A stretch of 64,000 bases of DNA from an uncultured Algibacter sp. Its GTDB lineage: Bacteria > Bacteroidota > Bacteroidia > Flavobacteriales > Flavobacteriaceae. Where the stretch lies: NCBI RefSeq assembly GCF_947487575.1, contig NZ_CANKXG010000003.1, positions 186,001 to 250,000 of the forward strand. Reading direction: 5' to 3'. Shown piece by piece: positions 3,626-53,878 of the stretch. The notes beneath the pieces were generated by a model that saw only the letters and a program-made list of their open reading frames with translations, ran no database searches and had not been told where the DNA came from. The position numbers were made by a program, and so were the translations under genes. Position 1 is the first letter of the stretch; each line of letters starts with the position of its first letter.

Positions 3626-3643
3626 TATCCTGCTGTATCCTGA
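3626..3643 (-). promoter_or_regulatory. TCCTG-type operator, site a (upstream of DUF1080 operon)
   Basis: TATCCTGCTGTATCCTGA matches the 15-bp motif TCCTGyrCTGTaCTG, seen in near-identical form at 15208, 29566, 30641, 52631 and 53859. It is about 220 bases upstream of the start at 3405. Its orientation relative to the downstream gene is the same as at the other sites. Confidence 0.5.
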
Positions 3644-3889
3644 AAATAATATTTTCAGAAGAATAAACTGTAGTTTTAAAATTAAAGTAAGTTTGATATA
3701 AAATATTAGGTTTTAACTGGCTTATATCAATATTTGTACTTTGAGTGTAGTAAAAGGGTATTTAAAAAGTGTTAAGGTTTGAAATACAATAAACTTGATA
3801 ATATATTATCTGGTATTTAAGTCAACAAACCAGCCTTTATACTAAAACTAACTTTATTTAGAAGTTAAATGTTTTTTTGTATGAATAAA

Positions 3890-3919
3890 AAAATAGCGAG
3901 AATTTAATCCCGCTATTTT
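3890..3919 (-). terminator. Terminator of the tandem SusC/SusD operon
   Basis: The arms AAAATAGCG (3890-3898) and CGCTATTTT (3911-3919) pair perfectly. On the minus strand the hairpin is followed by a T-rich run. It lies 35 bases beyond the stop codon of the DUF1735/DUF4361 lipoprotein gene. Confidence 0.7.
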
Positions 3920-3953
3920 TAACTTAAACGATATGATTTATAATGTCTTAAAA

Positions 3954-5126
3954 TTAAGGTATTTCTAAGTCTAGTGTAAACTCCTCAAACTTTACATCTC
4001 TGTCTCTAATAACTAAAGTATCTTTAACTGTATGCAATAAATCAAGCGTTGCTGTTGTTGTTGAAATTAATCTACCAAAAAAGCGTCTCTCAGTAACTTC
4101 AACTTCTAGTTCTCGGTATTCATAATCTAAGTAAATTACGTCTCGACTTTCACCTCCCCATTCATCTCCATCTTCTACAAAATTTCCTGAGCCCGTTACA
4201 GTAACTGTACTACTTGGGTCTGCATTAGTAACAGTAATTTCTTCATTATCGTTAAATGTTAATAGTAAAGACAATGTATTATTGGTAGCAAGATCTGGAT
4301 CTGATCTTCTAACACCAATAGTAGTAGTTGCTATATTTCTTCCTGCAGTTGATACTGGAAGTAATTCATCACCTACAACAAACTCAGATCTATAAACTGT
4401 AGAGTTATCAATGTCCCTTGATTCTGTCTCTGTTGGGTCTCCACTTTCAAAAACCGTTTCCAATCCGACAAAGCCGACAACTGCATCCTCACCGCGTCTT
4501 AAATAGATACCTTGATATTTATTCATAAACTTGATACCAAAAAGTGTATAGTCTTTAGGTTGTGTTGCCCAATCATCAGCTTTAATCTTAATTGGGTTAT
4601 CAACCACTGGTACACCTGTTAAAAGAGAATCTAATTCTTCATAACCAGTAATTTTTAAAGGAAGAACATAGTTAACCGAATCCTTTTCAGCAACAAATGA
4701 AAGTGGATCATCAAAAAATGCATCTGAAAGCTGCACCGGTATGCGTCCTTTTGTAGAACCAGAAGGAATTGTCACAGGACTTTCTTGTTCAATAGTATAG
4801 TAAGAAGCAGGTAATACTCTTACATTTACTGCATTAACCCCTGTCAATTGAGTAGCATCTATTAATTCAGGAGCTAACTCAAAATGTACTCTTCGATTTT
4901 TATTATTATTGTAAACTCCAGACATAACAACACCGATTTCAAACCGTCCATTATTGTCGTTTTCATTAAAACCTAAATCATACTTCCCTTGAATTAATGT
5001 TCGTACAGGGGTTTGAAATGGAAAATATACTGAAGTTGAACCAAAATCGTCAAATTCATTTTCCTGATTTTCGCAAGCCATTAAACTAAAGGCAATTACG
5101 CATATTATTAAATATTTTATTTTCAT
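3954..5126 (-). CDS. Surface lipoprotein, DUF1735/DUF4361 type (candidate glycan-binding protein)
   Basis: The protein has 390 residues with a lipoprotein signal ending CVIAFSLMAC (Cys18). The N-terminal part, with SVYFPFQTPVRTL and repeated beta-strand patterns such as RVLPASYYTI and IPVQLSDAFF, fits DUF1735 (BACON-like N-terminal domain of BT_3987-type proteins). The C-terminal half, including LFGIKFMNKYQGIYLRRGED, fits DUF4361. Proteins of this kind are commonly the third partner after a SusC/SusD pair and bind glycan at the cell surface. The gene is the last of the operon and starts 40 bases after the SusD stop. No catalytic motif is visible; ligand unknown. Confidence 0.8.
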   Translation of the reverse strand: MKIKYLIICVIAFSLMACENQENEFDDFGSTSVYFPFQTPVRTLIQGKYDLGFNENDNNGRFEIGVVMSGVYNNNKNRRVHFELAPELIDATQLTGVNAVNVRVLPASYYTIEQESPVTIPSGSTKGRIPVQLSDAFFDDPLSFVAEKDSVNYVLPLKITGYEELDSLLTGVPVVDNPIKIKADDWATQPKDYTLFGIKFMNKYQGIYLRRGEDAVVGFVGLETVFESGDPTETESRDIDNSTVYRSEFVVGDELLPVSTAGRNIATTTIGVRRSDPDLATNNTLSLLLTFNDNEEITVTNADPSSTVTVTGSGNFVEDGDEWGGESRDVIYLDYEYRELEVEVTERRFFGRLISTTTATLDLLHTVKDTLVIRDRDVKFEEFTLDLEIP

Positions 5127-5165
5127 GTCTAATATTTTTTAATTCTTCTAAGTTACATAATTACC

Positions 5166-6893
5166 CTACCAGCCATTATTTTGCTCCAATTCAGGAAATT
5201 TTATAGTCTCTGCATTTGGAATTGGCATATAAGTCGCAAATGGTTGGTAATCCCTCTCTTCTACAGAAGGCAACTCAACATAATTACTTCCGTTAAAAAA
5301 GTAACCTTTAGCTGTTTCATTTAAAGATAGTCCCCACCTTCTAAGATCCCAGAACCTATGACCTTCAAAACTTAGTTCTATACGACGTTCATTTCTAATA
5401 AGCTCTCTCATCCCGTCTGTAGTTGAAATAGATGCTAAGTAGTTATCTGGTTGTGTAATTCCTGCTCTATCACGTATTGCTGCAATCACGTCACGGGCGG
5501 TAATACCACCAACCTGATGGTCAGGACCACCAATTTCGTTAGCTGATTCTGCTAAAATTAAAAACAATTCGGTATATCTAAAATACACATTAACATGTAT
5601 CTTACCTGTAGCAGTATTATCATTATTAATTCTAACATCTGGACGTAACAATTTTTTAAGGTAATAGCCTGTAGTTGTTGATTGCTGAGGAATAGAATCT
5701 AACCTATCATTTCCACCACCAACACCAGTATTAATTGTTCCACCTCCAAAAGAAGCCCCATTAAGAACAACATATTTTTCTAACCTAGGATCTCTATTGG
5801 CATACGGGTTTTGTGGATCAAAACCATTAGCCTCAGTTGCAGGATATCCGTCTTGCATTGGGAATGCCATTACAAAGTTATGTGTTGGATTAATCTCCCC
5901 ATTTCCATTAACTGAAGGCGGAAACATTCTTTCTTCATAGTTGGAAGTATTGCCTCCTAAAGAACTACGCCAAAGCATTTCGCTACTCTCTAAATTAGGA
6001 TCATCTGCATAAAACTCAAGACCAATTGGATCCAAACCAGCAACGCCTCCAATAGTATTTAAAATTTCAGCGGCATTATTTGCTGCCATATTATAATAGT
6101 CTTGATTATTTAAAAACGAAGGACTTGCAGCAAAAAGTGCTAAACGTGCTTTTAGTGCTTTTACAATTCTTCCTGAAATACGTAAATCAAAAAAGTTATC
6201 ATTTACCACTTTGTATTTAACATAATCAAAGTCTTCCAAATTTGAATACCACTCATCTACCTGTACCTCACTTAATCCATAATCAGTTGGTAATAAAGTA
6301 AGTGCCTCATCAAAATCTGCCATAATAGCCTGAACAGAGGCTTCAAATGGTAAACGGGGTACATTAAAGTTACCATCAGGTTCAATAAATTCAGTAAAAT
6401 AAGGAATACCTAATAATTCACCAGAAGTACCAACTCCTGCATGTGCTTGAAGCGCATAAAAATGATGCAACCCTCTTAACGCCAATGCTTCACCCTTTAA
6501 ACGAAGGTAAAACATATCATTAGTTAATGTATCTCTGCTCCATTGTATTTCTCTTGCATCAATAATTTCTAGAAATCGGTTTACCCAGAATACATTTTCA
6601 AATCTACTCCAACGGGCTATAGGGTTAAATTGTGCGCTTAGCTCTCCAATAGCAATTCGCTTGATATCATTATCCAAAATATTATTAACAGCATCATCAG
6701 TAGCCGCTTCAGTAAATGAATATTGATCCAACAAGTTATTATATCCATTTAATAATATTCCTTCTGCTAAATTTGGATTTGCGCTAACATCATCAAAATC
6801 TAACCTGTTTTCATCAATAGGTTCGAAGGTATCACAAGCAATCATGCCAGTAAACACCAATACAATTAAAATATATTTTATTAAATTTTTCAT
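5166..6893 (-). CDS. SusD/RagB-family outer-membrane lipoprotein (pair 2)
   Basis: This 575-residue protein has a lipoprotein signal (VLVFTGMIAC, Cys20). Its typical SusD features are TPR-like helices in the N-terminal half (EALALRGLHHFYALQAHAG), the C-terminal RNERRIELSFEGHRFWDLRRWG block, and a terminal aromatic-rich ending. SusD proteins form the lid of the SusC transporter and capture oligosaccharides. It sits directly downstream of its SusC partner, with a 27-base gap. Ligand specificity cannot be read from the sequence. Confidence 0.95.
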   Translation of the reverse strand: MKNLIKYILIVLVFTGMIACDTFEPIDENRLDFDDVSANPNLAEGILLNGYNNLLDQYSFTEAATDDAVNNILDNDIKRIAIGELSAQFNPIARWSRFENVFWVNRFLEIIDAREIQWSRDTLTNDMFYLRLKGEALALRGLHHFYALQAHAGVGTSGELLGIPYFTEFIEPDGNFNVPRLPFEASVQAIMADFDEALTLLPTDYGLSEVQVDEWYSNLEDFDYVKYKVVNDNFFDLRISGRIVKALKARLALFAASPSFLNNQDYYNMAANNAAEILNTIGGVAGLDPIGLEFYADDPNLESSEMLWRSSLGGNTSNYEERMFPPSVNGNGEINPTHNFVMAFPMQDGYPATEANGFDPQNPYANRDPRLEKYVVLNGASFGGGTINTGVGGGNDRLDSIPQQSTTTGYYLKKLLRPDVRINNDNTATGKIHVNVYFRYTELFLILAESANEIGGPDHQVGGITARDVIAAIRDRAGITQPDNYLASISTTDGMRELIRNERRIELSFEGHRFWDLRRWGLSLNETAKGYFFNGSNYVELPSVEERDYQPFATYMPIPNAETIKFPELEQNNGW

Positions 6894-6920
6894 TTTATTT
6901 ATCTTAATTTTCTAATTATA

Positions 6921-9900
6921 TTAAAATGACGCTCTTATCCCTAGAGTAAAAGCTCTAGTTAGTGGCGCTCTACCAATCCTTAATTGGCGAATATCTCGAT
7001 TTTTAGCTATTTCCAAAAGGTTAGTTCCTTGAAGGTTTATGCTTAAATCTTGAATACCAAGTTTATTCGATATGTTATCATCGAATTCATATGTTAACTG
7101 AGCACGATTAATAGTAAAATAACTATTATCGTACAACCAAAATGTAGATGATCTAAAGTTGTTTTGATTTGTACCAGCTGACAACCTAGGAAACGTTGCT
7201 GTATTTGCAGTTTCGGGAGTCCAACGATTTAAAACAACCTCAGAATATTTATCATTTCCATCAACTGAATAATATTGGTTAAAAGCACTATTTAATTTAC
7301 TACCAACTCCTCCTGTTTGTCCGGTTCCAAGTATAAATAGATTAAATGCTTTATATTTTACATTTAGGTTAATTCCATAATTCCAAGGACTATTAGTCTG
7401 CCCAATTGCAATTTGGTCATCGTCATCAATCCAATTATCTCCATTTTGATTGGCGTATTTTATATCACCTGGCTTTAGTACCGTACCAAATCGAGGAACT
7501 GGCAAACCAGCATTTAAATTACCGTCTCCATCAAAATCGGCCTCAGAATAAAAGCCTTGGTCAACTAAACCAAAAGTTGTATTAACCTCTTTTCCAACTC
7601 TGTTTTGGTAGTCAAACTCATTTATTTCAGATCGTTGTAATACTTCTGTTTGACTGTACAATATATTAGCACCTATAGCTACTGAAACATCATTAAAGTT
7701 TTTCTTAAAATTCATACCTATTTCAAAACCAGTATATAAGTTCTTACCGAAATTGTTATAGGGTCTGAAGTCTTCATAATAAGACGGGTATAGGGCATTC
7801 AAAAATTCTACTTGCTTATCGAGCTCTGATTTAAAATAATTAAACTCTAACCACAGAGAATTCATTAAATAACTTTCTAAACCTATGTTTAAATCAATAC
7901 GCTCTTCAAATGTTAAATCAAGATTCTCTCCTTGTGAAATATTTTGTCTACGATTAGAATTTCCATCAGCCCAATTAAAATTGTTACCATTAGAATAGTT
8001 TACATTATATAAATAGTAACCACCTATTCCTTGGTCAGACTTTATAATACCACCTGAAGCCTTTAACTTAAGGTAGTTAATAAAATTACTATTCTTCAAA
8101 AAAGGTTCTTCACTTAAAATGTACGCCACACCTGAAGTTGGTGATAAAGCACCTCTATTTCCTTCCGGTAGCTTTAACGAAGTAACATAGGTTCCTGTAA
8201 AATCAAAAAATAGTTTCTTTTTGTAGTCATAAGCTATTTGAAATCCTAAATGAGCATCAACATCTGTTTGAATAACATTGCTTCTCCTTTGTGAATTATA
8301 ATAACCTAACAACGTGGTATTTAAAGAATGATCTTTAGAAAAAGTTGTGTCATAATTTACCAGTCCATAAAGACCAAATCGAGATACAAAACCATTGGTA
8401 CTAACATTTTCAGTTTGATCTTTTATGTCTCTACCAAAAATACCAGAATCATCTGCGATAGGGTTAAGTGAATCAGTATTATCAATACCAAAATTTGTTA
8501 TTCTATTACCTTCCCAACCTGGAGCGTATGTTTTGTATTCATTAATTATATTTAAATCAAAAGAATCATAAAAATCAAAACTCACATAGGTTTTAGCAGA
8601 CAGACCTTTTGTTATCCTATCTAAATCAAAATTGATTGAGTTGTTAAACTGTGTAGAACGAAACACATTAGTTTGGTACCCACCAGCAATAGCCAAAGCT
8701 ATAGGTGCATCTGTACCGAACTGTTGTGTTGTTCCCAAAAGAAACCCATTAAACGTACGTGCCGTTTGCAATTGTCCTGCAACCGTAGGGTCGCTAGTAT
8801 CTACTAAATTTGCAGGTAAAAATGGCGAATAAGTATTAGGCTTAAGAGTAGTACCAGCGCTCAACAAATTAGCTCTAGACGAATTAGTTGTACTTATAAT
8901 CGCAACACCATCTAGACTACTAGTAATCCAATCATTTATTTTAAAATCTAAGTTACCTCTTATATTAAAACGGTTATTACCTGCATTGATGTCATCATTA
9001 ATATTAACCCATTCCTCTCTAGTATTCCAACCCACATTAACATAATACTGATTTTTATCATTTCCACCAGAAAACTCAGAAATAACACTTGTAGTATTAA
9101 TAAAGGGTTGCACATATTCACTTGAATATAAGTCTACATCTGGGTATAGGTACTTATTTAAGCCACTATTGGTATTAAAAATCTTCTCATTTGAAAATCT
9201 TCGCCCATCATCTGCTAGTGCACCATCGTTATCCAAAGCTTCATTAAAAAGTGTCATATATGCCGCTGAACTCAAATAATTGGGCAAAGCCCTAGGGACA
9301 CTAATACCAGAGCGTACATTAACATTAATCTCTTTTCTATTTTCTTTTCCGCGTTTAGTGTTAATTACAATAACACCATTTCTACCTTGACTACCGTATA
9401 ATGCCACAGAGTTTGCATCTTTAAGCACCGTTATCTGCTCAACCTCTTCCATATTAAGAATATTAGGATCACGACCAATTACACCATCAATAACAAAAAT
9501 AGCATCATTCCTTAACCCTCTAACATTATCAGAACCTCTTACTCCTAACATTAGTCCGTTAATATAATCTCTAACCCATTGGGTATTGTCATAGGCTAAA
9601 CGATCTTTTGTGTTTATTGATGAAACCGCTCCAACAATATCACGACGATATTTAGTAGCTACTCCCATCTTAATTTCATCATCTTCGCTGGCCAGAAATG
9701 GCGATTTCTCCAAGGTAATATTATCTGTCAAATCAAACATATTAGTGAGCTTCGATTCATAACCCTTTTTTTTAATTACAACAGACTCATCATCAAGTAA
9801 CATAATTTGAAACTGCCCATTAACATCCGAAGATGTTTTATTTCCATTAAAGCCAAAAACATTAACTCCGCTTATAGGGTTACCTTCTTTATCAACCACA

Positions 9901-10007
9901 GTTGCTTTTACTTCTGAAACTTGTTTTTGAGCCAATGCTATATTACAAAAGCAGAACAACATTAAGCAAACTAGAGTAAACAACTTATATAATTTATTTA
10001 TCTTCAT
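6921..10007 (-). CDS. SusC/RagA-family TonB-dependent transporter (pair 2)
   Basis: The protein has 1028 residues from the ATG at 10007. I chose this start because it gives the signal peptide MKINKLYKLFTLVCLMLF...ALAQ and avoids overlap with the preceding SusD gene. After the signal come a carboxypeptidase-like regulatory domain (about 30-100), a plug domain with ITVLKDANSVALYGSQGRNGV, and a beta-barrel ending TLGIRASF. The segment that should hold a canonical TonB box (DEVVVVGYG in the other two SusC proteins here) reads EDDEIKMGVATKYRRDIVG, so the box is atypical. It imports oligosaccharides across the outer membrane with its SusD lid. Confidence 0.95.
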   Translation of the reverse strand: MKINKLYKLFTLVCLMLFCFCNIALAQKQVSEVKATVVDKEGNPISGVNVFGFNGNKTSSDVNGQFQIMLLDDESVVIKKKGYESKLTNMFDLTDNITLEKSPFLASEDDEIKMGVATKYRRDIVGAVSSINTKDRLAYDNTQWVRDYINGLMLGVRGSDNVRGLRNDAIFVIDGVIGRDPNILNMEEVEQITVLKDANSVALYGSQGRNGVIVINTKRGKENRKEINVNVRSGISVPRALPNYLSSAAYMTLFNEALDNDGALADDGRRFSNEKIFNTNSGLNKYLYPDVDLYSSEYVQPFINTTSVISEFSGGNDKNQYYVNVGWNTREEWVNINDDINAGNNRFNIRGNLDFKINDWITSSLDGVAIISTTNSSRANLLSAGTTLKPNTYSPFLPANLVDTSDPTVAGQLQTARTFNGFLLGTTQQFGTDAPIALAIAGGYQTNVFRSTQFNNSINFDLDRITKGLSAKTYVSFDFYDSFDLNIINEYKTYAPGWEGNRITNFGIDNTDSLNPIADDSGIFGRDIKDQTENVSTNGFVSRFGLYGLVNYDTTFSKDHSLNTTLLGYYNSQRRSNVIQTDVDAHLGFQIAYDYKKKLFFDFTGTYVTSLKLPEGNRGALSPTSGVAYILSEEPFLKNSNFINYLKLKASGGIIKSDQGIGGYYLYNVNYSNGNNFNWADGNSNRRQNISQGENLDLTFEERIDLNIGLESYLMNSLWLEFNYFKSELDKQVEFLNALYPSYYEDFRPYNNFGKNLYTGFEIGMNFKKNFNDVSVAIGANILYSQTEVLQRSEINEFDYQNRVGKEVNTTFGLVDQGFYSEADFDGDGNLNAGLPVPRFGTVLKPGDIKYANQNGDNWIDDDDQIAIGQTNSPWNYGINLNVKYKAFNLFILGTGQTGGVGSKLNSAFNQYYSVDGNDKYSEVVLNRWTPETANTATFPRLSAGTNQNNFRSSTFWLYDNSYFTINRAQLTYEFDDNISNKLGIQDLSINLQGTNLLEIAKNRDIRQLRIGRAPLTRAFTLGIRASF

Positions 10008-10045
10008 TTTTTTCTTTATATTAATTAAAACGAAATTGTATAAAA

Positions 10046-11941
10046 CTACCATCCTGGGTTTTGAGGGAAGCCCTCGTAAATTTGTGTTTGATCAGCTCTA
10101 AACGGTAACCAATAGTGTTGAGGAAAATCACAAACTCTATCAGCAAGAAGTCTTTCTGTGAAACTACTTCTATTTTCTGGAAAATCTAAGGCTAATTTTC
10201 TTCTGTATTTATCTAAATGTGCCACTCCCCATCGTCGTATATCTACCCATCTATGTGCTTCATAACTTAACTCAACAGCTCTTTCTCTTCTAAGTTCATC
10301 CATAAACTTGTTGTTATCTGCAACTATATTAGGATGCACATTAGGAATACCAGCTCGATTACGGAATAAATTAATAGCACCCTCAGCAGTTAAGCTATAA
10401 GAACTTGGTGTTGCAGTTGCTCCCTTAGATGCATGTAATGCTTCTGCATACATTAAATAGACATCTGTTAGTCTCATATGCATACGCATACCAGAATATT
10501 GTCCTATAATATTATTCCATTTACTATGATACTCACCATCAACTTTGGGATAAAATTTTGTCCACATATACCCTGTTGTAGATTTTTTATTATCAAAGAT
10601 AGTTCTACGGTGTATACCTGCATCATCCGCAGTATTATACCAAAGCTGTGCAAATCTGTGCTGTGCGTCTCCTCCTGTTGCTTTTGGAGCTACCTCATCA
10701 CCATCTATAATATGCCATCTGTAAAAGCGTGGATCACGATTTTCAAAAGGTTTAGTTACGTCAAAATCTGAAGTTCCATATTGACCACTTTGATCATCCT
10801 CTATTGAAAGGCCATTAGCCATTCCAAAATTGTTATGAATATAATTATGAGTAGGAGAGATATTTTCTGATATGCTACCATGCATGTCTCTATTTACTCC
10901 TGATGTCATAAATCTTTCGACTTGACCTTGATTACCTCCTCCAGCAGAAAACACATATTCTGTACCTCCTGGCCATGCATTAGGTGTTGGTGATTTCCAA
11001 AACACCTCATCATAATTATCCCAAGAAGCTAATGCATAATAACCTTGGTCTGCTAATTTAAGAATTCCTGAAAAAGCATCAACAGCCATATCACATAACT
11101 CCTTGTCATACTGATACGTATTTATACTACCGTTATTCCCAAACATTAAAGGGCTTGCTGCTAAAAGTAAGTTTTTACCTTGAAAAGCATATGCCGTTCC
11201 TTTAGTAAGCCTACCCTTATTTTCACCAAATGTTAGTTGGCCATAATCCTCTTCATCCCAATCATTAGGTAATAACTTAATGGCTTCTTCGTAATCTGCA
11301 TTAGCTAGTAAAGCAACTTCTCTATAGGTTTCTGGACGTGGTAATTTAAAATCATCTATTAAGACTCTATCTATGTATGGATAACGTCCCCAAAATTTCA
11401 TAATCTCATTATGGAAAAATGCTCTAAAAAAATAAGCTTGTCCAAGAATAACATCTTTTTCCGCTTCAGTTGCATTCACCATTAAATCAATATTAGCAAT
11501 TACAATATTAGCTTTACGAATACCACGTAAGCTACCATCATATAACCCTGGTCTTTGTCTATTAAAAGTATTAATATTATCAACATTGGCTGAATTGGTC
11601 CCTGTCGATCCATAATCAGAATTTTGGTGATTATTAAAGTAAGAAAAACTTTCTGATATTACAGCATTGAAGTTTCCTGCATCAATATCACCACTCATTT
11701 TTACTTCTCTATTAACATGCCCGTCATCACCCAAAAGAAAATCTTGAAAGGTATGCGCTTGCACTTCATAAGCTACCACTAAGGCATACATTTCTTCAAC
11801 GAAACCTTGAGCATTTTTAAAGGTTGAAAAAACCTCTACTTCGTCTATGATTGACTCTGGAGCCTGATCTAAAAAATCCTCACATGAAAACGACAATGCG
11901 AGTCCTAAGATTATTAATATTTTTATTTTATAGTTTTTCAT
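10046..11941 (-). CDS. SusD/RagB-family outer-membrane lipoprotein (pair 1)
   Basis: This protein of 631 residues is longer than most SusD proteins. Its lipoprotein signal ends LGLALSFSC (Cys20), followed by EDFLDQAPES, the common start of mature SusD proteins. Helical TPR-like segments (AYFFRAFFHNEIMKFWGRYPYI) and the C-terminal RRERAVELSYEAHRWVDIRRWG block are present. The gene follows its SusC by 12 bases. Extra length lies in the middle, around the predicted glycan-binding face (residues about 300-450). Substrate unknown. Confidence 0.95.
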   Translation of the reverse strand: MKNYKIKILIILGLALSFSCEDFLDQAPESIIDEVEVFSTFKNAQGFVEEMYALVVAYEVQAHTFQDFLLGDDGHVNREVKMSGDIDAGNFNAVISESFSYFNNHQNSDYGSTGTNSANVDNINTFNRQRPGLYDGSLRGIRKANIVIANIDLMVNATEAEKDVILGQAYFFRAFFHNEIMKFWGRYPYIDRVLIDDFKLPRPETYREVALLANADYEEAIKLLPNDWDEEDYGQLTFGENKGRLTKGTAYAFQGKNLLLAASPLMFGNNGSINTYQYDKELCDMAVDAFSGILKLADQGYYALASWDNYDEVFWKSPTPNAWPGGTEYVFSAGGGNQGQVERFMTSGVNRDMHGSISENISPTHNYIHNNFGMANGLSIEDDQSGQYGTSDFDVTKPFENRDPRFYRWHIIDGDEVAPKATGGDAQHRFAQLWYNTADDAGIHRRTIFDNKKSTTGYMWTKFYPKVDGEYHSKWNNIIGQYSGMRMHMRLTDVYLMYAEALHASKGATATPSSYSLTAEGAINLFRNRAGIPNVHPNIVADNNKFMDELRRERAVELSYEAHRWVDIRRWGVAHLDKYRRKLALDFPENRSSFTERLLADRVCDFPQHYWLPFRADQTQIYEGFPQNPGW

Positions 11942-11953
11942 TATTTCTTTTTT

Positions 11954-15151: not shown

Positions 15152-15183
15152 CAAAGTTATGAAGTCACCAATATCTTTACAAT
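15152..15183 (-). promoter_or_regulatory. Predicted promoter of the tandem SusC/SusD operon
   Basis: Read on the minus strand, TAACTTTG at 15159-15152 matches the Bacteroidota -7 consensus TAnnTTTG. ATTG at 15183-15180 is a near match to the -33 TTTG element, with a 20-base spacer in the normal range. The shared operator lies about 25 bases further upstream. Prediction by eye only. Confidence 0.45.
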
Positions 15184-15207
15184 TTTACAAATAAGTGCTT
15201 GCTCAAG

Positions 15208-29585: not shown

Positions 29586-29601
29586 CAGACCTAGTAGATA
29601 A

Positions 29602-44649: not shown

Positions 44650-44651
44650 AA

Positions 44652-45143: not shown

Positions 45144-45145
45144 AA

Positions 45146-46117
45146 TTATTGATTTTTAATTTGGTTGATAAGATCATTCATTTCTGGGTGTTCTTCCATA
45201 AAAGCCTCTAAAACAGATTTTGACTGCTCTTGAAACAATGATTTCTCTGGAATAATAACTTCTACACCAGCTGCTTTTGCAGTAGCCATTGATTCTTCTA
45301 CAGATTCGTTCCAAAACCGTTTTTGAGCTTGCACAGACTCATCCATAGCCTCTTGAACCCATTGCTTCTCTTCTTCTGTAAGTTTATCCCAATATTTAGT
45401 TCCAATTAGCAACACATCTGGAACCGAAGAATGCTGATCTAAAGTATAATATTTACTAACTTCATAATGATTTGAAGATACAAATGAAGGTGGATTGTTC
45501 TCCGCACCATCCACCACACCTTGCTGTATAGCAGTATATAATTCACCATAAGCCATTGGTGTTGCCGAACCTCCTAAGGCATTCACCATATTAATAGCCA
45601 TTTGATTATTCATCACTCTAATTTTCAAGCCTTTTAAATCTTCAGGCGTTCTAATAGCTTTGTTGGAGGTGTAAAAACTTCTACTTCCTGCATCATAATA
45701 CCCAAGTCCTCTTAACCAAAATTTACTTCCTTTTTCTAAAATAGATTTACCGACTTCACCTTCTAAAACATCAAATTGATGTTGTTTGTTTCTAAACAAA
45801 TAAGGAATACCTAATACATGATATTCTGGAACAAAATTAGATAATGTTGCTGCACTAACCTTAGTTATCGCTACACTTCCTATTTGCAAAAGCTCAAGAA
45901 CTTCACGCTCAGATCCTAATTGGCCATCAGGAAACACCTTCACATTCATTTTACCACCAGACTTTTTGTTTAGTGCTTTTTTAAACTCTAAAATACCTTT
46001 GTGAACAGGGTGCCCCTGTGGTAAAGTGTGTGCCAAATATAAAGTTTGTGTATCTCCTTCTTCTTTACAAGACGAAAACGCTAAAACCAAAATACAGACT
46101 AAGATAACGTGTTTCAT
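45146..46117 (-). CDS. dctP: TRAP transporter substrate-binding protein (DctP), lipoprotein
   Basis: The protein has 323 residues with a lipoprotein signal (LVLAFSSC, Cys17), so it is membrane-tethered rather than free. It has typical DctP segments: LAHTLPQGHPVHKGI, VFPDGQLGSEREVLELLQIG, LKGLKIRVMNNQMAINM with the carboxylate-binding arginine R167, and GVVDGAENNPPSF. Given the operon (uxaC, uxuA, kduI) the ligand is very probably a hexuronate or its 4-deoxy-5-keto derivative. The gene is three bases after uxaC. Confidence 0.93.
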   Translation of the reverse strand: MKHVILVCILVLAFSSCKEEGDTQTLYLAHTLPQGHPVHKGILEFKKALNKKSGGKMNVKVFPDGQLGSEREVLELLQIGSVAITKVSAATLSNFVPEYHVLGIPYLFRNKQHQFDVLEGEVGKSILEKGSKFWLRGLGYYDAGSRSFYTSNKAIRTPEDLKGLKIRVMNNQMAINMVNALGGSATPMAYGELYTAIQQGVVDGAENNPPSFVSSNHYEVSKYYTLDQHSSVPDVLLIGTKYWDKLTEEEKQWVQEAMDESVQAQKRFWNESVEESMATAKAAGVEVIIPEKSLFQEQSKSVLEAFMEEHPEMNDLINQIKNQ

Positions 46118-46119
46118 AA

Positions 46120-47529
46120 TTATTTTATTTTAAAACCAAAATAGTTTTTGGCATTGTAATAGCAAATGTCTTGAACCGTTTTTCCTAAAAATTCAATATC
46201 GTTTGGAATTAATCCTTGCTTTACATCTTCACCTAAGATGTTGCATAGAATACGTCTAAAATATTCATGTCTTGGAAATGACAAGAAGCTACGACTATCT
46301 GTAAGCATACCAACAAATTTACTTAATAAGCCCATATTAGATAAGCAGTTAATTTGCTTTTCCATACCATCTTTTTGGTCTAAAAACCACCATCCAGACC
46401 CCCATTGCATTTTACCTGGGTAATCAGAATTTTGAAAATTCCCCATCATAGTTGCAAAAACTTCATTTTGCGACGGATTCAAATTATATGTAATGGTTTT
46501 TGCTAGTTTATTATTTAAGTTTAATGTGTTAAATAATTTAGACATAGACTGAGCTACAGGAAACTCTCCTATAGAATCTACACCAGCATCTAGACCTATT
46601 TGCTCTAGTAATCTACTATTATTATTTCTAATGGCGCCAACATGCATTTGTTGCGTCCAGCTTTTAGCATGATACATTTCGCATAACTTTACAAGAATAC
46701 AAGATGTAAATATGTTTGCCTCTTCTTTAGAAATTTCAGTTCCAGAGATGCGTTTCTTAAATATAACATCAGCTAGATCTTCTGTGAAATCTGAAGCAAA
46801 AATCTCTTCTAAACCATAGTCAGATAAACGACATCCTAAACTATCGAAAAAATCAATACGCATTTGAATAGCTTTTAATAAATCTTCTAAATTTTGAATA
46901 GAAAAATCTACACAAGCAGCAAGTTTAGCAATATAAGATGAAAATGATGGTTTTTGCACCATTAACAAATTATCAGGTCTAAATGTTGGAAACACCTTAG
47001 TAAAAAAACCTTTTTCAGCAATTTCCTGATGGTATTTTAAATCGTCAATAGGATCATCAGTAGTACAAATTACCTCAACTTTTAAATCTTCTAAAAGTTG
47101 GGCTGGTGTTTTGTGTTCTAAAACAGCATTTGCTTTTTCGTAAATAGCTTCGGCTGTATTAGGTTGTAACAATTCATCGATATCAAAATAACGCTTCAAC
47201 TCTAAATGTGTCCAATGAAATAATGGATTTCTTAAAGTATAAGGCACTGTTTCAGCCCATTTTAAAAACTTTTCCTTATGAGATGTTGCAGAACTAGTAA
47301 TAAAAATTTCGTCAATACCATTAGCTCTCATAGCACGCCATTTATAGTGATCTCCCTTAAGCCATGCTTCGGTAATGTTTTTTATTGGTTGATTTTCTGC
47401 TATTAATTGAGGTGATAAATGATTGTGATAATCGATAATTGGTAAATCTTTTGCATAATTATGGTATAGTTTTTCAGCTACATCAGATTGCAAAATAAAA
47501 TTATCGTTAATAAAGTTAGTTGTATTCAT
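46120..47529 (-). CDS. uxaC: Glucuronate/galacturonate isomerase
   Basis: The protein has 469 residues, the usual length of UxaC. The metal-binding start PIIDYHNHLSP, ICTTDDPIDDLKYH, QMHVGAIRNNN and LTDSRSFLSFPRHEYFRRILCNILG are conserved blocks of this amidohydrolase-like family. It converts D-glucuronate to D-fructuronate, and D-galacturonate to tagaturonate, in the cytoplasm. With uxuA and the SDR at 51573 it completes the glucuronate arm to 2-keto-3-deoxygluconate. Confidence 0.96.
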   Translation of the reverse strand: MNTTNFINDNFILQSDVAEKLYHNYAKDLPIIDYHNHLSPQLIAENQPIKNITEAWLKGDHYKWRAMRANGIDEIFITSSATSHKEKFLKWAETVPYTLRNPLFHWTHLELKRYFDIDELLQPNTAEAIYEKANAVLEHKTPAQLLEDLKVEVICTTDDPIDDLKYHQEIAEKGFFTKVFPTFRPDNLLMVQKPSFSSYIAKLAACVDFSIQNLEDLLKAIQMRIDFFDSLGCRLSDYGLEEIFASDFTEDLADVIFKKRISGTEISKEEANIFTSCILVKLCEMYHAKSWTQQMHVGAIRNNNSRLLEQIGLDAGVDSIGEFPVAQSMSKLFNTLNLNNKLAKTITYNLNPSQNEVFATMMGNFQNSDYPGKMQWGSGWWFLDQKDGMEKQINCLSNMGLLSKFVGMLTDSRSFLSFPRHEYFRRILCNILGEDVKQGLIPNDIEFLGKTVQDICYYNAKNYFGFKIK

Positions 47530-47538
47530 AGATAAAAT

Positions 47539-48717
47539 CTAGTTCAATGATACTTGTAACGGGTTATTTATTTTTTTTGAAAAGCTTTCTAAATACGTAT
47601 TCCAATTATCTTTAGAAATAAATTCTCCTGCCTTTTTCCAGCCAAAACCAGCGTAATAAATTGCTTTATTATTGTTTATTTTAACTTCTGCAAATAAATT
47701 ACTTTCATCTTTCAATGGTGTATCATATAGTGTTGAAGTAATCATGCTTCCGTTAGGAACCACTATGCCTGTTCCTAATTCAGAATCTCCATGTGGTTGC
47801 CAATATGATACCCATCCTGAAGATTGGTTTTGAGTATCCTCTCCATCTTTTTCATGTAAAGTTAATCCTGTTGAAAACGTATCTGTTCCTGAAATTTCAA
47901 TTTCAAATCGAGATAAATTATTTCCATAGTCTAAAGAAATATGTTTGGTTTCTGAAATAGATTTCCCATTAGCATCCCAATCTGCATATTCTAAAACAAA
48001 ACTGGTTCTTATTGGCCCTGTAGTAATCGTTTTCCAGTTAGTAAAATTTCTAGATATGTGATATATAGAATCTGCTTTTACAGCAATACCACCTACACCA
48101 CGAGAAACACCTACATGAAAATTATCTAGTCCTTCTCCTGAATCTTTATGATAAGCACCTTTTTCCGTTTCAGCTTTTTTGTACCATTTATTAATTATAG
48201 GATATTCAACACGTTTTAACCACGCATCAATCCCGCTAGAAAGTGTACCTCCTTTAACCTCATCCTCAACCATTTTTTGTGCCGTAGGTCCAAAAGTTCT
48301 AAATCCAACTTTGTTATTTTCCCACGCATAATCGTCTGTTCTTTCTGGAACAAATCTAGAATAACAATACTGTAATGTTTCAGGTTTTTCAGAAGCATCA
48401 ACCGAAACTAATTTATATTGATGTGTTGCATTAGCAGCTATTTCTGGTTGAAATAATAGCACATCTGCTTTACCATCTTCATTATTATCTACAAATTGAG
48501 ATACTAAGATCTTATTAGTTTTTATATCCTTGACTGAAAAGCTTTCAAAATCTTCATCTTCATTAAGTTTTAAATCTGCTTTATTGATTTCAACTGTTTC
48601 AAATGTACGTGCTATATCTAAAGTGTTTTTAACCATGATAATATGGTTATGCTCTTTCTTACAACCTAAAAGGATAAAAAAAGCTAGAACCACTAAAAAT
48701 AAAGTTGCTTTTTTCAT
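47539..48717 (-). CDS. DUF4861-family lipoprotein
   Basis: The protein has 392 residues with lipoprotein signal LVVLAFFILLGC (Cys19). Two segments, IVVPNGSMITSTLYDTPLKDESN and NFHVGVSRGVGGIAVK, fit the DUF4861 family, which is common in uronate-containing polysaccharide loci of Bacteroidota; I know of no firmly established biochemistry for it. It is a secreted, beta-rich protein in the middle of a cytoplasmic uronate operon, so it probably handles a uronate-containing substrate in the periplasm, for example as an esterase-, lyase- or hydrolase-like enzyme. Function unassigned. Confidence 0.75.
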   Translation of the reverse strand: MKKATLFLVVLAFFILLGCKKEHNHIIMVKNTLDIARTFETVEINKADLKLNEDEDFESFSVKDIKTNKILVSQFVDNNEDGKADVLLFQPEIAANATHQYKLVSVDASEKPETLQYCYSRFVPERTDDYAWENNKVGFRTFGPTAQKMVEDEVKGGTLSSGIDAWLKRVEYPIINKWYKKAETEKGAYHKDSGEGLDNFHVGVSRGVGGIAVKADSIYHISRNFTNWKTITTGPIRTSFVLEYADWDANGKSISETKHISLDYGNNLSRFEIEISGTDTFSTGLTLHEKDGEDTQNQSSGWVSYWQPHGDSELGTGIVVPNGSMITSTLYDTPLKDESNLFAEVKINNNKAIYYAGFGWKKAGEFISKDNWNTYLESFSKKINNPLQVSLN

Positions 48718-48719
48718 AA

Positions 48720-49511
48720 TTAATCTTCGTTTGAAGGTTTACCTATAGTAGCTAAAATTCCACCATCAACATATACAACATGACCGTTAACAAAATCACT
48801 AGCTTTTGATGACAAAAATATTGCTGCACCAGCTAAATCATTAGGATCACCCCAACGACCTGCAGGTGTTCTACCTACAATAAATTCGTTAAATGGATGT
48901 CCATCTACGCGAATAGGAGCTGTTTGTGATGTTGCAAAATACCCAGGACCAATACCATTAGTTTGAATATTAAATTTGGCCCACTCGGTAGCCATACTCC
49001 TTGTTAACATTTTCAAACCTCCTTTTGCTGATGCGTAAGCACTTACAGAGTCTCGTCCTAATTCACTCATCATAGAACAAATGTTGATGATTTTCCCTCC
49101 TCCTCTTTCAATCATTCCTTTCGCAACACACTTAGATACAATAAAAGGTGCAACTAAATCTACCTGAATTACAGCATTGAAATCTGTGACTTCCATATCG
49201 ATTATAGGAGTTCTTTTTATAATTCCTGCATTGTTGACTAGAATATCTATAGATCCAACTTCCTTTTCTATTTTTGCAATAGAGTCTTTTACTGCCTTTT
49301 CATCAGTTACATCAAAAACGTATCCGTATGCATTAAGTCCTGACGCCTTATATTCTTCAACTGCTGCTGCTAACTTATCTGTAGAATTATTATTTACTAC
49401 AATAGTTGCTCCAGCATTACCTAATCCTTTGGCCATTGCCATTCCTAATCCATGAACAGCACCAGTTACTAATGCTACTTTACCTGTTAAATCAAATAAG
49501 TTAATTGACAT
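48720..49511 (-). CDS. kduD: 2-dehydro-3-deoxy-D-gluconate 5-dehydrogenase (SDR)
   Basis: This 263-residue classical short-chain dehydrogenase has the cofactor loop TGAVHGLGMAMA (17-28), NNAG at 93-96, and the catalytic Y159 and K163 in YASAKGG. The sequence ILVNNAGIIKRTPIIDM and the adjacency to kduI identify it as KduD. It reduces 3-deoxy-D-glycero-2,5-hexodiulosonate (2,5-diketo-3-deoxygluconate) to 2-keto-3-deoxygluconate. It lies 10 bases after kduI. Confidence 0.93.
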   Translation of the reverse strand: MSINLFDLTGKVALVTGAVHGLGMAMAKGLGNAGATIVVNNNSTDKLAAAVEEYKASGLNAYGYVFDVTDEKAVKDSIAKIEKEVGSIDILVNNAGIIKRTPIIDMEVTDFNAVIQVDLVAPFIVSKCVAKGMIERGGGKIINICSMMSELGRDSVSAYASAKGGLKMLTRSMATEWAKFNIQTNGIGPGYFATSQTAPIRVDGHPFNEFIVGRTPAGRWGDPNDLAGAAIFLSSKASDFVNGHVVYVDGGILATIGKPSNED

Positions 49512-49521
49512 ATCTATAATT

Positions 49522-50364
49522 TTATTTTAATTCGTTTATTTTACAATGATCCATATCTCCGTAATCTAGGTTTTCGCCTGCCATACCCCAAATAAATGAG
49601 TAATTACTCGTTCCAGAACCTGAGTGTATAGACCATGGTGGCGAAATTACTGCTTGATTATTTCCCATCCAGATATGGCGTGTTTCTTGTGGTTGCCCCA
49701 TAAAATGACATACCGCTTGGTCTTCGGCAACTTCAAAATAAAAATAGACTTCCATTCGTCTATCATGTACATGCGCAGGCATGGTGTTCCATGAGCTTCC
49801 TGATTTTAAAGTTGTCATTCCCATTTGCAATTGGCAAACATCAACTACACTATTTACTATGTACTTTCTTAAAGTACGCGCATTTGCAGTTTCAGGTGCA
49901 CCTAACTCGATAACTTCGACATCATTGATTCCAATTTTTTTAGTAGGATGTGCTTTATGTGCAGGTGTAGAGTTTAAATAAAACTTAGCTGGATTTTTTT
50001 CAGATACACTTGAAAAAACCACTTTTTTATTTCCTTGTCCAACGTACAATGCTTCTCTATGATTTAAAACATAGTCTTTACCATCAACAGATACAGTACC
50101 TGATTCCCCTATATTTATAATACCAAGTTCTCTTCGTTCTAAAAAATACGGCGCTTTCAAAGGGTCTATAGCTTCTAATTCAATTGAATTTAAAATTGGC
50201 ATAGCCCCACCAGTTATAAATCTATCATAATGCGAATAGACTAAGTTTATTTTATCGGATTCAAATAAATTTTCAATTAAAAACTCTTCTCTTAATTGAT
50301 TTGTATCATATTGTTTTACGCCTTGTGGACTTGATGCGTAACGCGTTTCATAATTTGTATTCAT
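49522..50364 (-). CDS. kduI: 4-deoxy-L-threo-5-hexosulose-uronate ketol-isomerase
   Basis: The protein has 280 residues, matching KduI. The metal ligands H198, H200 and E205 (HVHDRRMEVYFYFE) and H247 (PPWSIHSGSG) correspond to those of the E. coli enzyme. It isomerises 4-deoxy-5-keto-hexuronate, the product of GH88 or lyase action, to the diketo acid reduced by KduD. It lies 20 bases after uxuA within the operon. Confidence 0.96.
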   Translation of the reverse strand: MNTNYETRYASSPQGVKQYDTNQLREEFLIENLFESDKINLVYSHYDRFITGGAMPILNSIELEAIDPLKAPYFLERRELGIINIGESGTVSVDGKDYVLNHREALYVGQGNKKVVFSSVSEKNPAKFYLNSTPAHKAHPTKKIGINDVEVIELGAPETANARTLRKYIVNSVVDVCQLQMGMTTLKSGSSWNTMPAHVHDRRMEVYFYFEVAEDQAVCHFMGQPQETRHIWMGNNQAVISPPWSIHSGSGTSNYSFIWGMAGENLDYGDMDHCKINELK

Positions 50365-50384
50365 GATTAACCTATGCTTTTAAT

Positions 50385-51560
50385 TTATATATTTTGTTTT
50401 AAACCGTATTCTAAACCTCTTAATTCTGCTAAACCACGTAATCTTCCAATTCCTGAATACCCTGGATTAGTTTTTTTATTCAAATCATCAAGCATTTGAT
50501 GCCCATGATCTGGTCTTACTGGAATAGCGTAATCTTTATATCCTTCAGCCTGTCTTCTTTTTTCTTCTACAAGAACTTCTTTGACAATGCTATACATATC
50601 TACATCGCCATCAAGGTGGTTAGCTTCGTAAAAATTACCTTGTTCATCTCGTTTTGTACTTCTTAAGTGAAGGAAATGAGCACGATCTGCAAAACGTTTA
50701 AATATTTGCACCAAATTATTATCAGCTCTTACTCCTAAGGATCCTGTACAAAACGTAATTCCATTTGATCTATCAGGAACATTATCGAATAAATAAGCGT
50801 AATCTGACTCAGTGCTTACTACTCTAGGCAAGCCTAATATTGGGTAAGGTGGGTCATCTGGATGAATACACATTAATACTTCATTTTGAGAAGCTACAGG
50901 TATAATTTCTTTTAAAAATAATACCAAATTTTCTCTTAATGTCTGCGCATCAATCCCTGAGTAAGTATCTAAAATGGTTTGAAACTGTTCTAACGTATAC
51001 CCTTCTTCAGCTCCTGGTAATCCTGCTATAATATTATTAACAAGTTGTTTTTTATGCGCTTCATCAAGACCATCGAAATAAACTTTAGCCGCTGCTTTTT
51101 GAGAATCATTATAACTATCTTCAGCTCCAGGTCGTTTTAATAAAAACAATTCGAAAGCTGCAAAAGCAATCACATCAAAACGTAATGCTCTAGAACCATC
51201 TTCAACCTCAAAATTTAAATCAGTACGCGTCCAATCTAAAACTGGCATAAAATTGTAGCACACAATGTTTACACCATTTTTAGCCAAATTCTCTATACTT
51301 TCCTTATAGCGTTCAATATAAGTTTCAAACTCACCTGAGCGTGTTTTTATATTTTCATGAACAGGAATACTTTCAACAACACTCCAAGTTAAACCTGCTT
51401 GTTCAATAGTTTCTTTTCTTTTAACAATTTCATCAATTGCCCATACTTCTCCGTTCGGAATATGATGTAATGCCGAGACAACTCCTGTTGCTCCAGCTTG
51501 TTTTATATCTGATAAAGATACAGGGTCATTTGGCCCGTACCATCTCCATGTTTGTTCCAT
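50385..51560 (-). CDS. uxuA: Mannonate dehydratase
   Basis: The protein has 391 residues, the standard length. The segment [62 protein letters not shown] and [13 protein letters not shown] are hallmark UxuA blocks with the iron-binding His/Cys/Asp residues. It dehydrates D-mannonate to 2-keto-3-deoxygluconate. It follows the fructuronate-reductase-type SDR by 12 bases, giving the consecutive steps of the same arm. Confidence 0.97.
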
Positions 51561-51572
51561 ATTATTATTTAT

Positions 51573-52400
51573 TTAAACACCACTGTAAGCACTAAAACCT
51601 CCATCAACTGGTATTACAACTCCTGTTATAAAAGAAGCACCTTCACCACATAACCACAATGTTGTACCAACTAAATGTTCAGGCTCTCCAAACTTACCCA
51701 TTGGCGTTTGTTCAATAATTTGATTACCACGAGGTGTTAAACTTCCATCACTATTCGTTAATAAAGCCCTATTCTGTTCTGTTAAGAAAAAACCAGGTGC
51801 TAAGGCATTAACACGAATTCCAACCTTAGAAAAATGAACTGCTAGCCACTGCGTAAAGTTAGACACTGCTGCTTTAGCACCACTGTAAGCTGGTATTTTT
51901 GTTAAAGGTGTAAAGGCATTCATTGAAGATACATTTAGAATACTACAACCTTCTCTTCCTACCATATCTTCTGCGAAAATTTGTGTTGGTAATAAAGTTC
52001 CAATAAAATTTAAGTTAAATACGAATTGAATTCCCGTAGGATCTAAATCAAAAAATGTTTTAAAACCTTCTGTTTTATTAAGTAAATCTTCGGCTTGTAA
52101 AAACGGATTGCTAGTTGTTCCTAAAGGATGATTTCCTCCTGCACCATTTATTAGAATATCACATTTTCCAAATGCTTTATTAACTTCTTCTTTTGCTAAA
52201 ACCAACGAATCTTTTTCCAAAACATTTGCTTCAACTCCAATAGCTGTTCCACCTGCCTCTATAATTTTATCAGCTACTTTTACAGCCGCTTCTTTATTTA
52301 AATCTAATAAGGCTATTTTATGCCCCTGTTTTGCCAAGGCCTCAGCCAAAGTACTACAAAGCACACCTCCTGCACCAGTAACTACTATAGTTTTACTCAT
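51573..52400 (-). CDS. SDR-family D-mannonate oxidoreductase (fructuronate reductase)
   Basis: The protein has 275 residues of the classical SDR fold: TGAGGVLCSTLAEALA for the cofactor, NGAGGNHP, S158/S159 and catalytic Y172 and K176 in YSGAKAA. The position as first gene of the operon before uxuA, together with uxaC, implies reduction of D-fructuronate to D-mannonate. It replaces the long-chain UxuB of enterobacteria, as is common in Bacteroidota. Substrate assignment is by context. Confidence 0.85.
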   Translation of the reverse strand: MSKTIVVTGAGGVLCSTLAEALAKQGHKIALLDLNKEAAVKVADKIIEAGGTAIGVEANVLEKDSLVLAKEEVNKAFGKCDILINGAGGNHPLGTTSNPFLQAEDLLNKTEGFKTFFDLDPTGIQFVFNLNFIGTLLPTQIFAEDMVGREGCSILNVSSMNAFTPLTKIPAYSGAKAAVSNFTQWLAVHFSKVGIRVNALAPGFFLTEQNRALLTNSDGSLTPRGNQIIEQTPMGKFGEPEHLVGTTLWLCGEGASFITGVVIPVDGGFSAYSGV

Positions 52401-52605: not shown

Positions 52606-52613
52606 CAAATATA
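52606..52613 (-). promoter_or_regulatory. Predicted -7 promoter element of the hexuronate operon
   Basis: On the minus strand TATATTTG matches the TAnnTTTG consensus exactly. At the expected -33 distance there is no TTTG; that stretch is occupied by the TCCTG operator (52631-52653), as would suit a regulator-dependent promoter. Confidence 0.4.
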
Positions 52614-52630
52614 GAAAACAAGGACACTTA

Positions 52631-52653
52631 TACCGTCCTGCTCTGTCCTGTTT
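52631..52653 (-). promoter_or_regulatory. TCCTG-type operator, site e (upstream of hexuronate operon)
   Basis: The core TCCTGCTCTGTCCTG at 52636-52650 matches the shared 15-bp motif at most positions. It lies about 230 bases above the first gene of the kdu/uxu operon, next to the predicted -7 element, in the common orientation. Confidence 0.5.
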
Positions 52654-52755
52654 TTTTTGTAAAATTAATTTTTTTTCGACAGAAAAAAAACAATAATTTA
52701 AAATTTTGGAAATATTAATTTTTAATCAGAAGATTACTCCAAGCTGATTACCTCT

Positions 52756-53757
52756 TTATAAAGAATCCCTTAATATAAGCTTAGTGTTTAAATACATTTG
52801 CAATGTTTGATTAGAATTAATAAACTCTGCAACTTTAGCTCCAAACTCCTTAAAATCAATCGAAATTACCGAAACGCCTTTGTACGTATATTTTTTTAAC
52901 GGCGTATCATTATAAGATAAAATACCCACGTCCTTTCCTAATTCAAAATTAGCATTAGAACATTGATTTAAAACCTCATATAACATCCTATCATTTACTG
53001 TAATATAGGCTGTGTTCTTCTTTACGACAAATTCCTTCGAATTATCAGAAATAGCACATTTAAAGTTGTAGTTCTTGCAAAACCTCTTAAAGTATTCCAA
53101 ACTTTCAGGTGGATGATGGGTAAACTCAGGGTAAACAAAATTCAAAACTTCGTATTTTTCAAATACATCTAGCGCTTTTTCTAAACACGAGTAAAAAGCC
53201 TTTCCAAAATCTTGAAACACATAATTTTCTACATTTTTAAATCCTGATTGTGAATCAATTAACAGTAATTTATTCTTATCAATTCCTAAGAGAATATCAG
53301 AGACTTCCGGATGATCAAACCCCATAACAATATATTTATAATACACACCATTATCTGTATTTAACATCGCTTTAAAGTTTTTTATATCATAATGATGAAA
53401 TTGCAAATCGACAATAACATTTTCGGGCAAGCAACTCATAAATGAGTGATAAAAAACTTCTTTATAGGCTTTGAAAGTACTAATTAGTAATAGGATTTTT
53501 TTTCTACTTTCGCTTATATAATAACCTTTATTAGGAGTGGCCTTTATATAACCTTGTTTCTTTAATAAAGTATATGCCTTAAAAACAGTATCTCTTGAAA
53601 CACCGTAATCTTTACTAAATTCATTTATAGAGGGTATACTATCCCCAGATTCAAATGCATTTATATTAATAGACTCCTTAAATGCATTAACAATTTTAAG
53701 ATATTTTGGAATATTGTTACCATCAATATCTTTAAGAAAAACTTTCTGAGCAATCAT
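52756..53757 (-). CDS. GntR-type regulator with LacI/periplasmic-binding-like sensor domain (hexuronate operon)
   Basis: The protein has 333 residues. The winged helix (about 15-80) carries FESGDSIPSINEFSKDYGVSRDTVF, and the C-terminal sensor domain has ILLLISTFKAYKEVFYHS, AYITVNDRMLYEV and VGILSYNDTPLKKYTY. It is a close paralogue of the xyl regulator at 26835-27827. Located directly above the kdu/uxu operon, it probably responds to a uronate or 2-keto-3-deoxygluconate. A TCCTG-type site 102 bases above its start suggests autoregulation. Confidence 0.88.
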   Translation of the reverse strand: MIAQKVFLKDIDGNNIPKYLKIVNAFKESININAFESGDSIPSINEFSKDYGVSRDTVFKAYTLLKKQGYIKATPNKGYYISESRKKILLLISTFKAYKEVFYHSFMSCLPENVIVDLQFHHYDIKNFKAMLNTDNGVYYKYIVMGFDHPEVSDILLGIDKNKLLLIDSQSGFKNVENYVFQDFGKAFYSCLEKALDVFEKYEVLNFVYPEFTHHPPESLEYFKRFCKNYNFKCAISDNSKEFVVKKNTAYITVNDRMLYEVLNQCSNANFELGKDVGILSYNDTPLKKYTYKGVSVISIDFKEFGAKVAEFINSNQTLQMYLNTKLILRDSL

Positions 53758-53858
53758 AGAAAAAAAATAGAATCTTCGTTAGTAAAGAAAAATCTTTTGG
53801 CATCATTGAAAAAAAAAAAAACCAACTTCATCAAATTAATTATAATAAAATGAAACAT

Positions 53859-53878
53859 CTATCCTGTACTTTCGGTAA
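53859..53878 (-). promoter_or_regulatory. TCCTG-type operator, site f (upstream of the hexuronate regulator)
   Basis: CTATCCTGTACTTTCGGTAA shares TATCCTGTACT with sites b and d but diverges in the second half, so it may be a weak half-site. It lies 102 bases before the start of the regulator gene. Confidence 0.4.

Follow-up and report, generated by a model that had tools for sequence, protein, structure and literature searches.

What do the recurrent 15-bp sites upstream of minus-strand genes in this Algibacter DNA do, and which protein reads them? The window, meaning the whole stretch of 64,000 nucleotides analyzed here, comes from contig NZ_CANKXG010000003.1 of an uncultured Algibacter sp. 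(assembly GCF_947487575.1). A sequence-only reading had placed the sites at 3629, 15210, 29568, 30643, 52636 and, in diverged form, 53861. It had joined the genes behind them in a single regulon and named two GntR-type regulators encoded in the window, here called GntR-A and GntR-B, as the candidates to bind them. The present analysis points to a third GntR paralog, the R-type, whose gene lies outside the window beside a rhamnose operon. We put at about 0.72 the probability that the sites are operators of this regulator, which would carry a LacI-like sensor, respond to rhamnose and activate a program of ulvan, rhamnose and uronate genes; we infer binding, signal and activation alike.

Motif abundance and composite promoter structure

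Within the window the bare 15-mer stayed at chance level: at up to three mismatches it matched 5 times against 2.3 expected, and at least 5 matches were seen in 9 of 100 shuffles. One of the five, at 27838, was absent from the six sites first listed, and those at 3629 and 53861 missed the three-mismatch threshold. Four listed sites (15210, 29568, 30643 and 52636) were confirmed to lie in spacers in a single orientation, and the sites at 15210 and 30643 are indeed identical over 15 bases. In the whole genome, a relaxed motif gave 42 matches versus 14 for the reversed pattern, and all 6 exact matches fell on contig C3 (320 kb), which contains the window at 186001-250000. On C3 itself the motif with up to two mismatches was found 30 times, 22 of them intergenic. 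In ten genomes of the genus, 24 strict-motif matches were counted versus 2 reversed ones, and 8 of the 10 genomes had the motif. All 24 matches were outside open reading frames (ORFs), with a correctly oriented gene start 48-300 bp away in 22 and a contig edge in 2. Across 299 genomes of the family, the strict motif gave 185 matches versus 19 for the reversed control.

Read on the coding strand, the operator is CAGnAYAGTACAGGATA, and 22 bp separate its ...GGA from a TAnnTTTG -7 box. With up to one mismatch allowed, the box was found at this distance in 82 of 109 intergenic sites; offset 0 accounted for 12 and other offsets for 0 to 5 each. The 109 sites were collected at up to one mismatch in relatives and up to two on the genome's own contig, each distinct sequence being counted once; related genomes among them are not independent. 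Motif sites inside ORFs were followed by the box in 4 of 22 cases. The same geometry was seen in 79 loci fetched by R-type homology alone, with 73 boxes at offset 22 (next best, 12). A frequency table of 94 sites gave CAG-N-AYAG-T-A-CAGGA-T-A/G, with sharp borders and the last bases at the -33 position. By this count, the predicted operator would cover about -49 to -35, with an extension reaching -32.

TAnnTTTG is given in the available part of PMC9723704 as the -12 to -5 box of the main flavobacterial sigma factor. The single orientation seen earlier is therefore accounted for: the motif forms part of a promoter with fixed -7 spacing. Fixed two-block geometry would also be expected if the sequence were the promoter of an alternative sigma factor and not an operator. 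This is hardly tenable, since the main sigma factor's own box makes up the downstream block (PMC9723704) and the presence of the sequence follows a GntR gene, as described below.

A 45-bp composite matrix (operator, 22-bp gap and -7 box) was trained on 54 sites outside the genus. On C3 it found 27 places above 14 bits, 26 of them outside ORFs, compared to 1, 0, 1, 2 and 0 in five Markov-shuffled controls, whose best scores ranged from 10.3 to 16.4 bits. The three top scores on C3 were all inside the window, upstream of uxuB, SusC and Kelch genes. The window contains the following sites:

52606-52650, minus strand: composite promoter upstream of uxuB-uxuA-kduI-...-TRAP; operator 52636-52650 (coding strand CAGGACAGAGCAGGA), -7 box 52606-52613; 37.4 bits, the top score of the 320 kb scanned, with 0 mismatches to the composite pattern
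15180-15224, minus strand: composite promoter of the tandem SusC/SusD genes (3954-15112); 37.0 bits
30613-30657, minus strand: composite promoter of the Kelch gene (29602-30591); 33.4 bits
29538-29582, minus strand: composite promoter of the ThuA-DUF1080 gene (27950-29518); 27.9 bits
3598-3642, minus strand: composite promoter of the DUF1080 / Gfo-Idh genes (678-3405); 25.8 bits
53832-53876, minus strand: doubtful site upstream of GntR-B; 12.7 bits, inside the range of the control maxima

Five of the six sites were thus recovered, far above the controls, by a matrix trained outside the genus; the sixth, at 53861, is doubtful, and GntR-B orthologs in other genomes have a sense site upstream in 2 of 7 cases (L184, L186). 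With up to three mismatches, the composite pattern matched 23 times in the genome versus 3 times reversed, and regulon sites were spread over about 230 kb plus other contigs. Conservation upstream of orthologous operons was also observed. The 15180-15224 site recurs before the SusC orthologs at L111, a locus from a different genus, and at L062, from this genus, and composite sites scoring over 14 bits precede 8 of 16 uxuB orthologs drawn from 30 chosen genomes. The bare motif often lies in coding DNA elsewhere: in 28 returned family loci its matches were coding in 9 of 9 from genomes without an R-type gene and in 5 of 19 from genomes with one. The motif is real in its composite form, and better described as part of a promoter than as a free-standing 15-mer.

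A class-wide scan gave matches in 4 of 295 genomes, 9 of which belong to the family. Because just 1 of the 286 genomes outside the family matched, the exact composite form is mainly confined to Flavobacteriaceae. Neolewinella loci carry a variant that the one-mismatch search missed.

Co-occurrence of the promoter with a third GntR paralog

The genome encodes five GntR/LacI-like paralogs. Those discussed here, and the separate operator of GntR-A, are:

C3:9551-10597, about 175 kb from the window: R-type GntR, beside the rhamnose operon (rhaD/rhaI)
C3:10699-11745: tandem copy of the R-type, 68% identical to the C3:9551-10597 protein
52756-53757, minus strand: GntR-B, with a GntR DNA-binding domain and Peripla_BP_3 (Pfam)
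26835-27827, minus strand: GntR-A, first of the xylose genes, with a GntR domain and a weak Peripla_BP_3 (Pfam)
27838-27852, minus strand: GntR-A's own predicted operator (coding strand CAGAACAGAACAGAA), some 10 bp ahead of the start codon

R-type genes were called in the 299 family genomes (236 genera) at E <=1e-75, and 62 genomes were positive. The composite promoter, at up to one mismatch, was present in 51 of the 299 genomes, with 0 reversed matches. It was found in 50 of the 62 genomes with an R-type gene versus 1 of the 237 without (Fisher p 4e-44, for genomes that are not independent). Genomes with an R-type gene and neither GntR-A nor GntR-B had the promoter in 33 of 42 cases. Conversely, it occurred in 0 of 13 genomes with GntR-A and no R-type gene, nor was it found in the sole genome with GntR-B and no R-type gene. 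For these counts the GntR-A list (33 genomes) drops G078, whose sole match was its GntR-B, and the GntR-B list (10 genomes) drops G079 and G118, which were GntR-A matches.

The association was also seen at the level of loci. Among 20 regions chosen by motif, from 16 genera, an R-type-like GntR gene lay near the motif sites in 11. The 79 loci chosen by R-type homology came from Hyunsoonleella, Algibacter, Wenyingzhuangia, Zobellia, Arenibacter, Flavobacterium, Polaribacter, Neolewinella and others. A rhaD-like gene was present within 6 kb in 65 and a composite site in 48, and rhaD was the next gene after a composite site 40 times. In freshwater Flavobacterium, rhaT is preceded by AAGGAYAGTACAGGA at most loci, and the box there is weaker (2 mismatches); in Neolewinella and Lewinella, CCGGACAGTACAGGA frequently stands before rhaD. 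Eight of the 79 loci had no site by the same rule, including the Flavobacterium metagenome-assembled genome loci L229, L230 and L294, which are without rha genes.

The best candidate for the regulator is most likely the R-type protein beside rhaD/rhaI, and not either GntR of the window, to judge by gene distribution. It is about 31-32% identical to GntR-A and GntR-B. Its N-terminal winged-helix GntR domain (PF00392) scored 44.2 bits against a cut-off of 27; the C-terminal sensor (PF13377) scored 26.2 bits in the C3:9551 protein, just below the cut-off of 26.5, and 35.8 bits in the tandem copy. A bifunctional rhamnulose-phosphate aldolase/dehydrogenase was identified above cut-off at this locus, together with rhamnose isomerase-like and rhamnulokinase-like genes below it. 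The two-copy arrangement was also seen at loci L225, L226 and L228, and a division of labor between the copies is possible.

An activator of a different type is conceivable, namely the hybrid two-component system (HTCS) at 39157-43218 or some other AraC-type protein. AraC-type proteins read asymmetric sites and activate polysaccharide utilization loci in Bacteroides, according to the available part of PMC3878776. The same source describes HTCS motifs as direct repeats with long spacers, however; the SusC/D genes beside the HTCS (35904-38933) had no upstream site above 6 bits in the matrix scan, and promoter presence follows the R-type gene. We regard this explanation as very improbable.

Candidate sites of GntR-A and GntR-B

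Binding of the sites by GntR-A and GntR-B has points in its favor: the SRDTV helix is common to all three GntR paralogs, GntR-A has a related operator, and a site precedes uxuB in 6 of 6 orthologs with a complete adjacent GntR-B versus 2 of 10 others. Against it stand the co-occurrence counts and the rarity of GntR-B, which is present in 8 of 299 family genomes. We consider it distinctly unlikely overall, and because of those counts the two proteins are set aside as main binders, except at uxuB. The single-regulon claim fared better in its other parts: one regulon, one orientation, conservation in relatives and a GntR-type regulator were all upheld.

In GntR-A orthologs, CAGAACAGAACAGAA adjoins the start codon in most cases. 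Upstream regions were alignable for 21 of 26, and 4 of 30 loci had no ORF by the rule used. The -7 box starts 13 bp before CAGAACAGAACAGAA in 16 of the 21 aligned regions, and the GntR-A operator would therefore start at +1, a repressor position. This predicted operator is related to the regulon motif and is of a different class, sequence and position. The neighbors of GntR-A were named xylose kinase and isomerase from sequence.

At uxuB, the six sites adjacent to GntR-B share the variant GAGCAGGACrG, and GntR-B may act there. Because G002 and G053 have the site with no GntR-B in the locus, uxuB can belong to the regulon without GntR-B.

Genes downstream of the sites

Behind the highest-scoring promoter in the window lie uronate genes:

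within 43345-52400, minus strand: D-mannonate oxidoreductase, uxuA (mannonate dehydratase) and kduI (NCBIfam)
within 43345-52400, minus strand: gluconate 5-dehydrogenase-like short-chain dehydrogenase/reductase, BT_3233-family protein, glucuronate isomerase and TRAP transporter

The 7 proteins scanned between 45146 and 52400 all exceeded the NCBIfam cut-off; the two TRAP membrane subunits (43345-45143) were named by sequence only.

Elsewhere on C3, sites above 14 bits precede rhaD (32.3 bits), three sulfatase genes (31.0, 28.4 and 19.3) and a GH5 gene (26.0), as well as two GH78 rhamnosidases (20.8 and 18.3), a GH39-like gene (23.0) and a SusC gene (19.0), the SusC gene being named by sequence. 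A 164-residue ORF at C3:112523-113017 (L041:12523-13017), which matches only positions 20-102 of the 257 in the PL28 profile, has a 26.7-bit promoter. PL28 ulvan lyase genes with near full-profile matches occur on contigs C11 and C13, with composite sites at 2 and 3 mismatches, respectively. Contig C8 has two opposed sites (2 and 3 mismatches) facing a 464-residue protein with no Pfam match and lactate-oxidation-like genes; the latter resemble those at locus L121, where LutB was identified by NCBIfam. A PSCyt1/PSCyt2/PSD1 protein with DUF2231 (C3:109500-112334) also has a regulon site, at 21.9 bits; this protein type is named after Planctomycetes.

The regulon targets fit ulvan, a polymer built from rhamnose, glucuronate, iduronate and xylose. 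The target set would consist of rhamnose, uronate and ulvan genes, ulvan as the polymer being what we infer from the enzymes. The DUF1080 (3-keto-disaccharide hydrolase family), ThuA, Gfo-Idh-like and Kelch genes of the window (678-3405 and 27950-30591) fall in this rhamnose-type regulon. Their membership hints that ulvan oligosaccharides may pass through an oxidative 3-keto step.

Two side observations were made. An identical 14-base match lies at two contig ends (C8:243372 and C16:35023) and is probably a repeat that broke the assembly. In the window, a partial-tRNA-like stretch at 54000-54075 stands beside an integrase-like ORF (54264-55475) and a ParB-like ORF (56948-58744), perhaps at the edge of an integrated element; ARAGORN found no attachment-site tRNA beside the integrase.

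Proposed mechanism of regulation

We propose that an R-type dimer would bind the predicted GTACAGTAC core, with the asymmetric GGATA end meeting RNA polymerase at -33. Because the distance to the main-sigma box is exactly 22 bp, the protein probably substitutes for the -33 element, and in this position it would recruit the polymerase. Fixed -33 spacing and a single orientation suggest activation. The signal would be L-rhamnose, or a metabolite of L-rhamnose, released from ulvan; this is judged more likely than glucuronate or xylose. Rhamnose catabolism, ulvan lyases, rhamnosidases, sulfatases, SusC/D transport, uronate catabolism and the DUF1080/ThuA/Kelch genes would be switched on together.

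The R-type protein could instead act at the same sites as a repressor over the -33 region, released by rhamnose. Such behavior is usual for sugar-sensing GntR proteins, and the operator of GntR-A is located at +1. A repressor, however, needs neither a constant distance to the -7 box, as seen in 82 of 109 sites and in the 73 boxes at 22 bp, nor a fixed orientation over unrelated promoters. Repression by the R-type is in our view rather unlikely.

Several observations weigh against the R-type as a rhamnose-responsive activator of all these genes. Twelve of the 62 R-type genomes lack the composite promoter at one mismatch, two of them with homologs merely 40-43% identical, and G085 is the only one of the 51 promoter-positive genomes without an R-type gene, possibly by chance. 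The link between uxuB sites and adjacent GntR-B, given above, belongs here as well. Evidence at the lyase genes is uneven: at the three-mismatch level of the C13 PL28 site, the reversed control also yields 3 matches in the genome, and a short ulvan lyase-like protein (PDB 6byp, E 1e-169) has a weak 13.6-bit site with its -7 box one base nearer. Fixed orientation sits oddly with the palindromic GTACAGTAC core that a GntR dimer would want, and a covariation count gave no clear compensating changes at operator positions 3 and 9 of this core. Finally, AraR of Bacillus subtilis, the precedent for a GntR domain with a LacI-like sensor, is a repressor.

Weighing these points, we lean slightly towards a more specific form of the proposal: the R-type protein would be a monosaccharide sensor of the GntR family acting in Bacteroidota as a class II-like activator, which substitutes for the -33 element at a single distance from the -7 box and puts the ulvan program under L-rhamnose, while GntR-A would use a near-identical operator at +1 as a repressor. 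If true, one operator family would be put to opposite uses by position, and the program would include lyases, sulfatases, transport, rhamnose and uronate genes and possibly the 3-keto oxidative genes.

Comparison with known systems

A GntR regulon for rhamnose or ulvan was not found described in searches of an open-licence library; the available parts of PMC12125979, PMC5507952 and PMC9296495 describe no such regulon. Few regulators are known from marine flavobacteria, and for their use of ulvan and rhamnose the analysis supplies a regulon and a promoter definition that can be tested and that allow members to be called directly from the sequence. Confirmed activation would mean that the unusual promoters of Bacteroidota can be switched on by an AraR-like sensor, and that a large polysaccharide program can be driven by a monosaccharide in place of an oligosaccharide.

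AraR of B. subtilis resembles the R-type in joining a GntR DNA-binding domain to a LacI-like sensor of sugars. AraR represses, whereas the R-type site keeps a fixed spacing at -33. The DNA-binding part is matched by PDB 4egy (E 5.7e-06), whose title says repressor. AusR of Zobellia galactanivorans, the nearest system by title, is reportedly a GntR repressor of alginate genes. Like the R-type, it would be a marine flavobacterial regulator of the GntR family that serves an algal polysaccharide; it differs in its polymer, alginate, and, by its title, in being a repressor.

The rhamnose regulators named in the available part of PMC3870299 belong to the AraC (RhaS/RhaR), DeoR and LacI families, and the lineages covered there exclude Flavobacteriaceae. 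Like the R-type as proposed here, they govern rhamnose catabolism, to which some lineages add the uptake of rhamnose oligosaccharides. The R-type differs in its GntR domain and in a predicted regulon that extends to polysaccharide lyases, sulfatases and uronate genes. In Bacteroides, RhaR is AraC-type, and FucR and ManR are GntR-type sugar regulators (PMC3878776, available part). The HTCS/SusR regulons of Bacteroides thetaiotaomicron are similar to that of the R-type in co-controlling SusC/D and polysaccharide enzymes. Those systems have membrane sensors of oligosaccharides and mostly local regulons (same part of PMC3878776), whereas the R-type would be a cytoplasmic-type monosaccharide sensor with dispersed sites.

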